Below, one piece after another: positions 51,314-59,499 of a DNA stretch of 64,000 bases. The DNA comes from Sulfuriroseicoccus oceanibius (GTDB lineage Bacteria; Verrucomicrobiota; Verrucomicrobiia; Verrucomicrobiales; SLCJ01). Position 1 is the stretch's first letter. The number at the start of each line of letters is the position of its first letter. The DNA lies in contig NZ_CP066776.1 in the NCBI RefSeq assembly GCF_010681825.2, forward strand, positions 992,001 through 1,056,000, read 5' to 3'. The position numbers were made by a program, and so were the translations under genes. The notes beneath the pieces were generated by a model that saw only the letters and a program-made list of their open reading frames with translations, was not told the DNA's origin and did no database searches.

Positions 51314-55465
<4,152 letters not shown>

Positions 55466-55495
55466 TCCGGCTCTCTAGCTGAAAAACTCAAACCG

Positions 55496-55535
55496 GCCGG
55501 GCCGCGGAGTCTCTCTCCGCGGCCCGGCTTTTTTG
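55496..55535 (+). terminator. Intrinsic terminator of rpoBC
   Basis: GCCGGGCCGCGGAG-TCTCT-CTCCGCGGCCCGGC, a perfect 14-bp stem, then TTTTTTG, 30 nt after the rpoC stop. A diverged second copy of this terminator and its flank occurs at 56337-56650. The rest of the gap to the next ORF (to 55837) has no supported gene. Confidence 0.95.
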
Positions 55536-55837
55536 TGCTCCGCGCATTTGTGGTGAGAGGGGCAGTCAGTTAGACCACGAGCCCAAGTAGTTGCTGAATC
55601 CAGTGTGGGATCTGTAGTACCCTGGAGGTGTGGTGATTCGGGCGAAAACGCGTGGAATCCGTCTATCTGAGGGACAATCAGCGGGAATTGATGGAGGCGG
55701 GGTGAAATGGCTTGCCGATGAACTGTCGGGTGCGCAATGTATCGCGGATGGTTAGAAATGATGCATGTCCGCGGTTTTCCTGGTCGAAATCATGGCAGTT
55801 TAGTTCTGAAGTTTTACCGGCATTTTAAATTGGGTTT

Positions 55838-56314
55838 ATGGTCGGTCATTGTGTATTAGAGTATCGGTATTCGTGGTTACAAGAAATTGTAACCGCTGCT
55901 GGGTGCGCGCTTGTCGCTTGCGTGTTTTTTTTGTGTTCGCGTGAGTGGGGGTGGATGTTGATTCCTGGAGGGGGGTTCCTGTGTTTGTTTTTTTACACCG
56001 TATGCACCTTTAGGAGACGTGGCAGGTTTTTCGTTCGTATTGAAGGAGATTGTCTTGAGTATGGTGATAACTTGCGAGTGAAGTCCATTGAGCTTTCCTC
56101 GATTACCAAGGTGATATATCGCAGTGTGCCTGAGCATTCTTCAATATACATACATAGAGATCGATCAGAATGTGTCGAGCTTGATGGCCGATGGATTCTC
56201 TTGGGTGGAGGGTTTGTAGAGGAGTTTCTTTGGTATTTTGAGAAAGAGGGGAAGCTCAGCATCACCGATAAAGATCGTGGGTGGTTGGAGGATAGGTGGA
56301 AGAGAAAAATTTAG
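55838..56314 (+). CDS. Unrecognised small membrane protein (two helices plus PH-like domain)
   Basis: 158 residues starting MVGHCVLEYRYSW. Two hydrophobic helices near residues 17-35 and 38-55 (VTAAGCALVACVFFLC; GWMLIPGGGFLCLFFYTVC) are followed by a soluble beta-rich domain (RRGRFFVRIEGDCLEYGDNL, RVKSIELSSITKVIYRSVP) that looks like a bacterial PH-type fold, then a helical end. No family named. Base composition is clearly more AT-rich than rpoC or tuf, suggesting foreign origin. It sits between the rpoBC terminator and that terminator's duplicated copy. Confidence 0.6.
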   Translation: MVGHCVLEYRYSWLQEIVTAAGCALVACVFFLCSREWGWMLIPGGGFLCLFFYTVCTFRRRGRFFVRIEGDCLEYGDNLRVKSIELSSITKVIYRSVPEHSSIYIHRDRSECVELDGRWILLGGGFVEEFLWYFEKEGKLSITDKDRGWLEDRWKRKI

Positions 56315-56320
56315 TGGAGA

Positions 56321-56343
56321 AATGACTGCAGGTGTCAAGTGAG
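56321..56343 (+). repeat. 23-bp junction sequence, copy 1
   Basis: Begins AATGACTGCAGGTGTCAAGT and ends with GAG; identical over all 23 bases to 57918-57940. It sits immediately before the duplicated post-rpoC terminator segment. It is not found at the original rpoC end. Confidence 0.75.
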
Positions 56344-56650
56344 ACCCTAGCTAGAAACTCAAACCGGCCGGGCCGCGGATACTCTCTCCGCGGCCCGGCT
56401 TTTTTATGCCCCGTGCATTCGAGGTGGTGGGGCTAGTCAGTGAGACGACGAACCCAAGTGGTTGCTGTAGTCAGTGTTGGATTCGAGCTGGCGAAATCGG
56501 ATGGGAATCGTCCATGAGGCGCAGTATCAGCGGGAAATGATGGAGGCTAGGTGAAACGGCTTGCCGATGATCTGTCGGGTGTGCAGAGTGTCGCGGATGG
56601 TTAGAAATTATGCGTGTCCTGATTCTGGTCCTAATAGCCATGTTAATTTA
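56337..56650 (+). repeat. Diverged duplicate of the region after rpoC
   Basis: Aligns with about 55474-55800: both share CTAGCTGAAA/CTAGCTAGAAA, AACTCAAACCGGCCGGGCCG, the terminator stem, CCGTGCATTCG versus CCGCGCATTTG, CAGTCAGTTAGAC versus TAGTCAGTGAGAC, AAGTGGTTGCTG versus AAGTAGTTGCTG, ATCAGCGGGAA, TTGCCGATGA.CTGTCGGGTG and TCGCGGATGGTTAGAAAT. By eye identity is around 75-80% with some deletions. The copy lies downstream of the first accessory ORF and upstream of the second group. Confidence 0.85.
56367..56406 (+). terminator. Duplicated rpoBC-type terminator
   Basis: GCCGGGCCGCGGA-TACTCTC-TCCGCGGCCCGGC then TTTTTT; the stem has been kept intact while its surroundings have diverged, so it probably still works, for the 158-residue ORF. 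Confidence 0.9.
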
Positions 56651-56656
56651 GATGTT

Positions 56657-56842
56657 ATGCCGTTTGTGTGGGCGTTGCAGTTGGATGGTACTCCAGCTCA
56701 GGGCGAGAAAGGTATAGTTCCGAACTACAAAGAAATTGATCAGTCGATTATGCACGAAGGGTGTTGTATTGGGGAGTATCTCAAGCTGCGTCCACCAATC
56801 GCTAATGATAAGCTGGAGCTTGCACCTGGGAATTGTCCATGA
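56657..56842 (+). CDS. Small unrecognised ORF coupled to the following gene
   Basis: 61 residues from the ATG at 56657 (MPFVWALQLDGTPAQGEKG, then IVPNYKEIDQSIMHEGCCIG and EYLKLRPPIANDKLELAPGN) with normal amino acid balance. Its TGA overlaps the ATG of the next gene (ATGA), which supports translation. A longer frame from 56561 begins inside the duplicated segment. No family is recognised. Confidence 0.45.
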   Translation: MPFVWALQLDGTPAQGEKGIVPNYKEIDQSIMHEGCCIGEYLKLRPPIANDKLELAPGNCP

Positions 56843-57768
56843 AATACACATTAATAAGTATCGTTCTCCTAGTTGCAGGTTTTCTGGGGTGGTGGCTGCT
56901 CAGTTTGGAGCCCAAAGGGAATCCAATAGCGGTTATTCAGGACGCAGATGAGCAAATTGCTTCTTCACTTCCTGACGAGGGGGTAATAGCTAGAGCAGCA
57001 GCAGCAGATGGCGAGAGTAGAATTAGAACGTTATGGGAAAAACACGTATATCCCCAACGATTGAAAGTTGCTGACGTTGACTTTCCTGTGGTGTTTGAGG
57101 GAGATGTCCCTGAGGAGCTTAAGCAGGTGATACTATCTGATGTTCATATGATTTATGGTCATATGGAAAGTCACGAGATTTACGAGCTTCATAACGAGAT
57201 CTCGGTTGGAGGTGGGAATATAGTGCTCACTAAAAGGCTCGGTTTTAGAGGGCGCGGGCGGCATTGGCCTGAAAAACATCAGGGGGCTTTTGGAGGTATC
57301 GCAATGCTAGATAGCGAAGATACAGTGGTTTTCCCCAAACAGCTTACTGATCATTATGAGTTAGCATGGCGCGCAAGGAATGACGCCCCTGCAAAATACG
57401 AGAAGCTTGAAATATTTATCGATTGGTTGAATTCCGCCTCAATGGAGGAGTTGGGCGCAGATAATCCGTACTGGTTGTACGGATACGATGGTGTGTCTGA
57501 CGAGAATCCAGAGTTAGCTGCTGAAATGAGAGCTCGTCTGTTGGGTGACGATAGGAGTGTCTTGAAGTTTCGCCATCCCAGTATTCTGGAGTTCACGTAT
57601 GTAGATCAGGAGGTCTTGAAAAAGGATAAGGCCGAAGGGCAGCTTCCTGTCGGAGTCACACTAGCTGACGGATTCTATTTGGATCAGAGTAACGTCCCTG
57701 TTCAGCAAGCTCTCTATTTGTATCATGGTGGCAAGTGGTACATAGCGTTTGCTCCCCCTGGAACCTGA
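56839..57768 (+). CDS. Unrecognised exported/membrane-anchored protein
   Basis: 309 residues: one N-terminal helix (MKYTLISIVLLVAGFLGWWL, then LSLEPKG), so it is either anchored or exported. The rest is soluble with segments FPVVFEGDVPEELKQVILSD, EISVGGGNIVLTKRLGFRG, YELAWRARNDAPAKYEKLEI and a C-terminal QQALYLYHGGKWYIAFAPPG. No domain is recognised. Composition is AT-richer than the flanking core genes. It is the second accessory gene in the patch between rpoC and the rpoC fragment; coupled to the small ORF upstream. Confidence 0.6.
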   Translation: MKYTLISIVLLVAGFLGWWLLSLEPKGNPIAVIQDADEQIASSLPDEGVIARAAAADGESRIRTLWEKHVYPQRLKVADVDFPVVFEGDVPEELKQVILSDVHMIYGHMESHEIYELHNEISVGGGNIVLTKRLGFRGRGRHWPEKHQGAFGGIAMLDSEDTVVFPKQLTDHYELAWRARNDAPAKYEKLEIFIDWLNSASMEELGADNPYWLYGYDGVSDENPELAAEMRARLLGDDRSVLKFRHPSILEFTYVDQEVLKKDKAEGQLPVGVTLADGFYLDQSNVPVQQALYLYHGGKWYIAFAPPGT

Positions 57769-57917
57769 TCTTTGAACGGTTCGCAAACTATGTCGTTTGT
57801 TGGCGCGAGACGGTTGGAGATGTGTGAGAGTTTGTACGAACGCATCATGTTTTTTTGATAAGCGATCATCCAGCCACCATTTGAGTCAGCTTGCCTGCTG
57901 AGACCGTTGTTAAAGGA

Positions 57918-57940
57918 ATGACTGCAGGTGTCAAGTGAGC
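57918..57940 (+). repeat. 23-bp junction sequence, copy 2
   Basis: Identical over 23 bases to 56321-56343, and directly joined to the duplicated rpoC fragment. CCCT follows both copies, directly here and after one extra A in copy 1. Confidence 0.75.
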
Positions 57941-57941
57941 C

Positions 57942-58090
57942 CTTTGGGGCGACGAGGTCGAGAAGAGCACCTTCGAGTGCATTAACCGCGAGGTCATCGA
58001 AGAAGGTGGTAAGCCTGCTGAAGGCGTGCCAGTCCTCCTCGGGATCACCAAGGCGTCGTTGGAGATCGAGTCGTTCATTTCGGCGGCTTG
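57942..58090 (+). pseudogene. 149-bp internal fragment of rpoC
   Basis: Matches 55090-55238 without gaps, about ten mismatches. In the rpoC frame it reads [20 protein letters not shown] then [20 protein letters not shown] and ends at a TGA just at the end of the match (SFISAA-stop). A stop also precedes it in frame, so it cannot be expressed as RpoC. Some changes alter amino acids (Q to E, R to C, E to V), consistent with relaxed selection. Confidence 0.9.
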
Positions 58091-58155
58091 AGCCGTCGAG
58101 TGGGATCTTGGCGTTGCTGGGCTTGCGTGTGTTGATGCGCCGGAGACGATCGTAG
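58088..58155 (+). pseudogene. Remnant of a PEP-CTERM C-terminal tail
   Basis: Directly after the rpoC fragment, the frame reads [17 protein letters not shown] then RRRRS and stop: a (P)EP motif, a hydrophobic helix and an Arg cluster, the layout of an exosortase sorting signal (compare VPEPSAAGLALCGGLGLML in the gene at 37204). There is no body or start codon, so it is the end of a lost gene. A shared CGGCTTGAG-like junction joins it to the rpoC piece. Confidence 0.6.
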
Positions 58156-58192
58156 TTTTCCCTTTTCCCGGAAAGTGACGATGACCCAAAGA

Positions 58193-58225
58193 AATGCCCC
58201 CGTCGGATGATCCGATGGGGGCATT
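58193..58225 (-). terminator. Terminator of the barrel/Pro-rich operon
   Basis: AATGCCCCC-GTCGGATGATCCGAT-GGGGGCATT with an inner TCGGA/TCCGA pairing; on the minus strand it is followed by TCTTTGGG. It ends 18 nt after the stop of the Pro-rich gene and may act in both directions. Confidence 0.8.
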
Positions 58226-58242
58226 GTTGTGTTCAATTGTGA

Positions 58243-59499
58243 TTAGCGGTTCGGGCGGCTCGGCCGGTTGGGTTTTTCCGGTTTGCTGGGCTTGTCTGGT
58301 CGCACGGGCTTTTCCGGGCGTTGGGGTTTCTCAGGGCGGTCCGGCTTTTGTGGACGTTCAGGTTTGTCTGGTCGTTCCGGCTTTTCGGGGCGCTCTGGTT
58401 TTTCCGGTCGTTCCGGCTTGTCCGGACGCTCTGGTTTTTCAGGGCGTTGCGGTTTCTCGGGACGAGTTGGCTTTTCCGGGCGTTGGGCCTTCTCCGGGCG
58501 TTGGGCTCGGTCGGGACGGTCCGCTTTGCCAGATTTCTGCGGGCGCTCGGGTTTGGCTGCATTGCGGGAGTCTGGATTACGGACAGCTGCTCCGCCTCGG
58601 CCAGGTCGGCGGTCGGGGGCTGTGAGCGTGTTCGCTTCCAGTTCGGGATCCTCGATCTGAGAATCTTCAAACACAGGTTTGCCTCGGCCTTTGTGGGTTC
58701 GGTTCTTTCCGGACATCAAGGTCCCGACTTTCACTCCGAGTAGTTCCTGGCTGATTTCGCCCCAGCCGGCACCGGCGGCCCGCATTTCGAGGATGCCGTC
58801 GGCGAGTGCGGGATCCGTGCCGAAGATGGCGCCGGAGAGACTGGCCATATCCGGATTGATTCCCTGTTGCTTGAGCGATTCCTCGGCCATGAGAAGCGTG
58901 AGCTTCACGTTGCCGATTCCCATAGCCCCTGAGCCATTCTCTACCACGACGGTTTCGACGATGGTTTCCATCTGAACGGCGGTCTCTGGAACAGGGTTTC
59001 CTTCGGCGTCGAGCATCGGAGTGCCGTCCGGGTTCACTTTGTAGACCGGGTTCCCCTCGGCATCGAGCACTGGAACTTCGACCGTGGTGGTCTCTGGGAC
59101 TGGATTCCCCTCGGGGTCTACCATTGGGGTTCCATCCGGATTCAGCTTGTAGACCGGGTTGCCGTCGGCGTCGATCAGCGGGGCAGTGACGGGGACTTCG
59201 GTCTCCACTTCATACGAGATGTCACTGCCGCCGCGCAGCGCTTCGGCAAGAGTGAGAGCCTCGCTTTCTCCAAGATCCGGGAAGCTGTCGGCAATGCTGG
59301 ACAACACCTTCCGCTCTCCGGTTGAGAGGGACTTGGGGGATTCAGGTGTTTCACCGATATCCGGCGTGTCGGAGAGATCGGGAGCGACCTCTACTTCGGT
59401 GACTTCCGGGCTGTCTGGAAGGTCTGGAGATTCAATGTCTTGGGCAAATGCGTAGGGGGCGGTGAGGCCGAGGATGCCTGCGATGAGTTTGTAGTTCAT
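58243..59499 (-). CDS. Secreted Pro-rich repeat protein
   Basis: 418 residues. Signal peptide MNYKLIAGILGLTAPYAFA (cleavage near AQD); acidic Pro-rich stretch (SPDLPDSPEVTEVEVAPDLS); a helical segment (STGERKVLSSIADSFPDLGE); two tandem repeats of about 34 residues (VYKLNPDGTPMVDPEGNPVP, VYKVNPDGTPMLDAEGNPVP); a conserved-looking region GIGNVKLTLLMAEESLKQQG and GAGWGEISQELLGVKVGTLM; and about 100 residues of RPEKPERPDKP-type repeats to the C-terminus, very basic and extended. No family recognised. It is cotranscribed with a barrel gene 15 nt upstream. Possible roles: periplasm-spanning spacer, cell-envelope or polymer binding. Confidence 0.75.
   Translation of the reverse strand: MNYKLIAGILGLTAPYAFAQDIESPDLPDSPEVTEVEVAPDLSDTPDIGETPESPKSLSTGERKVLSSIADSFPDLGESEALTLAEALRGGSDISYEVETEVPVTAPLIDADGNPVYKLNPDGTPMVDPEGNPVPETTTVEVPVLDAEGNPVYKVNPDGTPMLDAEGNPVPETAVQMETIVETVVVENGSGAMGIGNVKLTLLMAEESLKQQGINPDMASLSGAIFGTDPALADGILEMRAAGAGWGEISQELLGVKVGTLMSGKNRTHKGRGKPVFEDSQIEDPELEANTLTAPDRRPGRGGAAVRNPDSRNAAKPERPQKSGKADRPDRAQRPEKAQRPEKPTRPEKPQRPEKPERPDKPERPEKPERPEKPERPDKPERPQKPDRPEKPQRPEKPVRPDKPSKPEKPNRPSRPNR

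Follow-up and report, generated by a model that had tools for sequence, protein, structure and literature searches.

A 23-bp RAYT leader motif stands at the start of copied rpoC-region DNA in Sulfuriroseicoccus oceanibius

Main finding

The stretch analysed here (the window) comprises 64,000 nucleotides (nt) of the genome of Sulfuriroseicoccus oceanibius (contig NZ_CP066776.1, positions 992,001 to 1,056,000). Downstream of the rpoC gene in this window a 23-bp sequence, AATGACTGCAGGTGTCAAGTGAG (the 23-mer), occurs twice, each time just before a copy of DNA from the rpoC region. We found that the 23-mer is the leader motif of RAYT-1, a gene for a REP-associated tyrosine transposase (RAYT; REP, repetitive extragenic palindromic sequence), as its association with this gene and its placement before the start codon demonstrate. 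Because the motif belongs to RAYT-1 and the window copies sit where rpoC-region copies begin, these copies look like break-and-join points of a RAYT system, not a new kind of element. We infer that cleavage by the RAYT at its REP-like leader motif, followed by joining to nearby DNA, is the best explanation, with a probability of roughly 0.6. The features concerned are listed below (window positions, unless preceded by G000:C1, the contig of this genome).

51314-55465 (+): rpoC, intact, from which the duplicated pieces derive; frame of 1383 aa with RpoC sequence
55090-55238 (+): internal rpoC segment, copied after copy 2 of the 23-mer; 94% repeat with 57941-58089
55475-55561 (+): rpoC terminator region T1, copied after copy 1 of the 23-mer; repeated from 56347 on, with a GC-rich hairpin and a T run
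56321-56343 (+): copy 1 of the 23-mer (L002 or L003), RAYT-1 leader motif; exact match
56347-56482 (+): T2, copy of the rpoC terminator region; sequence repeat
57917-57939 (+): copy 2 of the 23-mer (L002 or L003), RAYT-1 leader motif; exact match
57941-58089 (+): decaying copy of the internal rpoC segment; 149 nt, 94%
G000:C1:58709-59983 (-): RAYT-1, intact gene; Y1_Tnp E 4e-9, REP_Tyr_transpos E 1e-17, HFH (HUH) motif

Copies of the 23-mer and their neighbours

An earlier note on this DNA had pointed out a 23-bp sequence present twice, and two exact copies on the same (+) strand were indeed found; its coordinates for the second copy, 57918-57940, were one base too high, the true position being 57917-57939. 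The repeat around the 23-mer reaches 29 nt at 93% identity (AGRAATGACTGCAGGTGTCAAGTGAGMCC) in the window, and the 23-mer together with the following NCC makes a 26-nt motif. No chance match with up to 3 mismatches was obtained in 100 shuffles, a control that rejects a chance repeat as its origin. The genome-wide search that the earlier note had proposed gave 7 copies in this genome (3.5 Mb, one contig), of which 5 are exact, one has one mismatch and one has two, and no copy in 56 relatives with up to 2 mismatches allowed. There was also no match in the contig collections genome_contigs and viral_contigs, and the idea of a widely shared sequence was rejected on these negative searches. The native rpoC locus in the window lacks the 23-mer, as the earlier note had observed, and no Rfam family was found in 55300-58300 at E <=0.1.

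One copy (L001) lies directly 5' of the intact 426-aa RAYT-1 gene, 33 nt before its ATG. RAYT-1 5' remnants follow two others, comprising 90 nt of the 5' end (92%) and then insertion sequence (IS)-like repeat DNA in one (L006) and about 30 nt of the leader in the other (L004). An internal RAYT-1 piece (94% over 180 nt) follows a fourth copy (L007), and L005 stands before IS-like repeat DNA, behind an Rhs gene plus a small downstream open reading frame (ORF). The five copies outside the window thus neighbour RAYT-1 or pieces of it (4) or IS-like repeat DNA (1); the two window copies are L002 and L003. The left boundary is identical in all 7 copies, and in most cases the sequence to its left is the end of a small ORF for a predicted membrane protein or lipoprotein. 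A link of the 23-mer with pieces of housekeeping genes, which had been suspected earlier, therefore holds for 2 of the 7 copies, both at this locus, the remaining 5 bordering other DNA. The earlier note had named membership of an ordinary gene family as a point that would refute its reading; the 23-mer does belong to such a family, that of the RAYTs, and the reading is to this extent partly refuted.

Two further loci contain or adjoin copies of the 23-mer. At G000:C1:1827174-1833384 (L035) a large gene of the Rhs type (1924 aa) is followed by a small ORF for a membrane protein; the two may be a toxin tip and its immunity gene, and the pair ends 57 nt before a 23-mer copy. At G000:C1:1366813-1371505 (L034) an array of three units, consisting of repeat A (the right end of RAYT-2, another RAYT gene) and orphan lipoprotein-like ORFs, ends in a 23-mer. 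The array as a whole is flanked by 178-bp direct repeats (93%), and part of it is common with 1836380-1837627 at 95%.

The 23-mer as the RAYT-1 leader motif

The RAYT-1 paralogues in this genome (820341 and 2944569; n=2) have TTTGATGCCAGCCATCAAATG at the position corresponding to the 23-mer, and 6 of the 7 RAYT-1 genes of the congener have a GATGCCAGRCAWA-type motif. Of the 10 RAYT-1 genes examined in the genus, 9 have a CAG core 47-49 nt upstream of the ATG, and the CAG of the 23-mer is at -48; on this agreement with the paralogue and congener motifs the 23-mer was identified as the RAYT-1 leader motif. When aligned by the ATG, the 23-mer and the paralogues' motif agree at 12 of 20 positions (p ~0.005 against shuffles); the match of the 23-mer to the congener motifs is weak taken alone (best p 0.05). 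The pairing TGAC/GTCA that the 23-mer can form (TTGAC/GTCAA in L006) corresponds to TTGAT/ATCAA in the paralogue motif, both sides being changed. The paralogues' motif, whose stem letters are changed jointly relative to the 23-mer, folds with a z of -3.6, and a variant of the 23-mer at 354920 has a 5-bp stem.

In this genome the stem of the paralogous motif is perfect over 8 bp, and 3' of one RAYT (the paralogue at 2944569) the motif recurs in inverted orientation. TTTGATGCCAGCCATCAAATG is itself dispersed (17 matches at about 10 places; reversed control 0). In a second RAYT-linked family (L089-L105) the hairpin TTTGATGCCAGCCATCAAATG is followed about 80 nt on by TTGGCGCAGGAT, forming dispersed units of about 100 nt; the same pair is also found at +139 in RAYT genes, where the second motif lies within the coding sequence (AKxGAGWW). 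This paired right-end motif, TTGGCGCAGGAT, is absent after the solitary 23-mers.

The 23-mer works like a REP with its RAYT, but we file it only as a REP-like RAYT leader motif. It was not classed as a canonical REP because it has no GTAG tag, inverted partner or high copy number and its possible hairpin is weak. Neither a GTAG/GTGG nor a CGTC tag was seen, on reading by eye, in the 23-mer or the directly flanking bases, and 7 copies in 3.5 Mb fall short of the high-copy criterion for REPs. REP families vary widely in size, many having 20-100 units or fewer (PMC3733652).

The joins to rpoC-region DNA

The earlier note had stated that each 23-mer is followed by a copy of rpoC-region DNA and that the two copies differ in origin. 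Both statements are correct, with the qualification that the first piece is the terminator region and not the rpoC gene itself. After copy 1, a copy of 55475-55770 (terminator and downstream repeat) starts at about 56347, with 77% identity over 299 nt; no further copy of the terminator piece was detected by a genome-wide search with 55460-57945. The internal rpoC piece after copy 2 carries 5 amino-acid changes versus 4 silent ones, as counted by hand from the alignment, which is as would be expected of a functionless fragment.

Three joins, to the rpoC interior, the terminator copy and the RAYT-1 interior, are sharp and start 1-4 bases past the 23-mer. In all three the shared sequence can start C|T, a C being present in motif and donor alike, and CT makes up 3-5% of the dinucleotides in the donors. 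The chance of three C|T joins was estimated at about 0.001, allowing 1-3 ambiguous positions per join, a post hoc figure for n=3 events. The earlier proposal of an element end or a recombination hot spot fits in that the 23-mer is a RAYT 5' leader motif and the breaks cluster just after it.

The sequence CAGGTG is common, in register, to native rpoC (55069-55089) and the 23-mer (57920-57940) upstream of the join, and may reflect chance or microhomology. As a cause of the join it was rejected, since nothing like it exists at the other two joins.

A probable mechanism and points against it

E. coli TnpA-REP cuts at CT on either side of its REP (5' or 3'), and the S. maltophilia enzyme cuts at CT 3' of it; the 3'-OH set free in this way may serve as a primer for synthesis or attack a different end (PMC8266576). 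RAYT-1, a Y1/HUH single-strand endonuclease, would bind the motif in its single-stranded state and probably nick just 3' of it, leaving a 3'-OH at the motif end. This 3'-OH would then be joined to another DNA stretch or prime copying from it. With a nearby strand of rpoC or of its terminator as the partner, the outcome would be the motif followed by a copied rpoC piece.

Several points weigh against this explanation. The C|T reading was made only after the joins had been seen, and microhomology leaves their exact position open by 1-3 bases. The rpoC DNA is involved in two joins only, both at one locus. T1 and T2 are about 77-84% identical versus 94% for the rpoC copy, which calls for two or more events that differ in age, or for exchanges at a later time; likewise, ORF1 and ORF2 of the insert (listed below) differ, so that a simple tandem duplication alone does not yield the present order. 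As to the motif itself, its stem is 4 bp long (-1.6 kcal/mol, z -0.56), no stronger than those of shuffles, and there is no inverted 23-mer 3' of RAYT-1 among all 7 genomic copies.

Alternative explanations

The main rival is that the solitary 23-mers are leftover left ends of RAYT-1 elements whose bodies were later deleted or replaced; the rpoC copies would then stem from tandem duplication of the ordinary kind, from a template switch or from the uptake of related DNA, and the motif would do no more than mark the place where the lost element had begun. We regard this as possible, without holding it to be probable. The copies form a graded series, from the intact RAYT-1 (L001) through 90 nt (L006), about 30 nt (L004) and an inner RAYT-1 piece (L007) to the motif only (L002, L003 and L005), with the same left boundary in all seven, and this series supports a remnant origin for some of them. 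However, random deletions would not be expected to stop three times so near the end of the motif, at a distance of a few bases, and it is left unexplained why sequence starts there with rpoC-region copies. RAYT cleavage and an origin as remnants of deleted elements can both hold.

It is unlikely that the 23-mer acted as a REP-like but passive recombination hot spot, for example as a gyrase or fork-stall target, with the RAYT playing no part: in cases of REP-REP recombination the repeat is present on both partners, whereas the rpoC and terminator sites have no 23-mer. Very improbable, finally, is the earlier suggestion of an integration core site, taken here as the attB/attL-like core of a mobile unit that entered at rpoC, restored the 3' end of the gene and left the displaced rpoC piece at its far end; the rpoC 3' pieces beyond the insert do look displaced and have the same orientation, but the tested insert ORFs (ORF1 and ORF2) gave no integrase-like family match, the copies do not bracket a single unit, neither the native rpoC end nor the relatives have the 23-mer, and its other copies lie at RAYT-1 and beside IS-like repeats with no common target gene. 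A phage-type attachment core is not supported.

The mosaic block downstream of rpoC

The remaining features of the block are as follows.

55562-55778 (+): copy 1 of repeat A, the 3' flank and right end of RAYT-2; dispersed in about 10 places
55838-56314 (+): ORF1, 158 aa, probable membrane protein
56490-56627 (+): copy 2 of repeat A, right end of RAYT-2; sequence repeat
56633-56842 (+): C-terminal remnant of the first gene of a two-gene operon; 41-49% identity to the C-termini of relatives' upstream genes, E 3e-14 and 2e-19
56839-57768 (+): ORF2, about 310 aa, second gene of the operon; ATGA overlap kept, listed ORF begins at 56833

Since repeat A, close by, represents the right end of RAYT-2, the block behind rpoC is a mosaic made up of captured fragments, with ends of two RAYT genes as its boundaries; the best copy of the full repeat A unit 3' of RAYT-2 is at G000:C1:1834161-1835228. 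The remnant of the first operon gene consists of its last 69 codons and starts where the right end of repeat A stops. The two-gene operon with ORF2 was found in 7 of 289 genomes of the order, this genome included, and one relative (L112) has a gene of the RAYT-1 type about 1 kb downstream of its ORF2 homologue; genome_contigs contained no relative of ORF2. ORF1 had no homologue in 337 genomes of the order, no convincing known domain was found in ORF1, ORF2 or the other cassette ORFs, and the congener has no part of the block behind its rpoC.

A bolder and rather doubtful idea is that the RAYT system captures chromosome fragments, motif nicking and C|T joining stringing pieces of host genes together. 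The captured pieces would be the rpoC end, the truncated two-gene operon and orphan membrane-protein genes, flanked on one side by a RAYT's right end and on the other by the left motif of a different RAYT.

Further downstream, a 418-aa ORF at 58243-59499 (-) contains a run of at least 12 units of an 18-nt repeat (58271-58518), which probably encodes a repetitive proline- and arginine-rich stretch. A second repeat pair, of 92 nt, lies at 58978-59177.

RAYT leaders in other genomes

Local repeats of at least 14 nt within 200 nt upstream were present for 3 of 10 RAYT genes versus 1 of 108 control windows (Fisher p 0.002). In a second set of leaders, which overlaps the first in some genes, local duplications occurred in 4 of 12 versus 1 of 99 control windows. 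Several of these duplications contain the leader motif. Four leaders from other genomes (L056, L057, L067 and L070) have short GGGACAG-type or other motifs, often as tandem copies 10-40 nt long. RAYT-1 matches numbered 41 in a family relative (G002; 2.8 Mb, 82% complete) and 24 in G001, which amounts to a large RAYT load. The notion that an inserting RAYT-1 as a rule duplicates the host DNA beside it found no support, the congener having just one 36-bp terminator-like pair that flanks a RAYT.

Significance

Little is understood so far of how REPs spread and of whether RAYTs cleave the chromosome in living cells (PMC8266576). Joins that fall a few bases at most from a RAYT leader motif, beside rpoC copies of known origin, would be footprints of RAYT activity and would offer a concrete substrate for testing it. 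A fragment-capturing RAYT, if true, would have left a natural record of its activity and would represent a slow route of gene shuffling; a mere remnant of a deleted element would be ordinary genome decay.

Comparison with known systems

The arrangement resembles REP/RAYT systems (REPtrons; TnpA-REP) in having a short sequence before the RAYT gene and further solitary copies between genes. It differs from them in that the 23-mer has a stem of only 4-5 bp without a GTAG/GTGG or CGTC tag, occurs in 7 copies only and lacks an inverted partner 3' of its RAYT. With the ends of IS200/IS605 elements (TnpA-Y1) it shares the Y1 (HUH) enzyme family and one conserved hairpin-like motif beside variable DNA; unlike in these elements, no conserved right end was found for the 23-mer family, and it has no known precise empty site. 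RAYT genes with atypical flanking structures are on record as TnpA-Y1 subclass 2.6 (PMC6006769). Our literature search found no papers on tandem duplications joined at REPs. REP sequences have been described at recombination junctions (PMC1525189), and in both cases rearranged DNA is joined at a repeat of this class, although here the motif is on one side of the join only.
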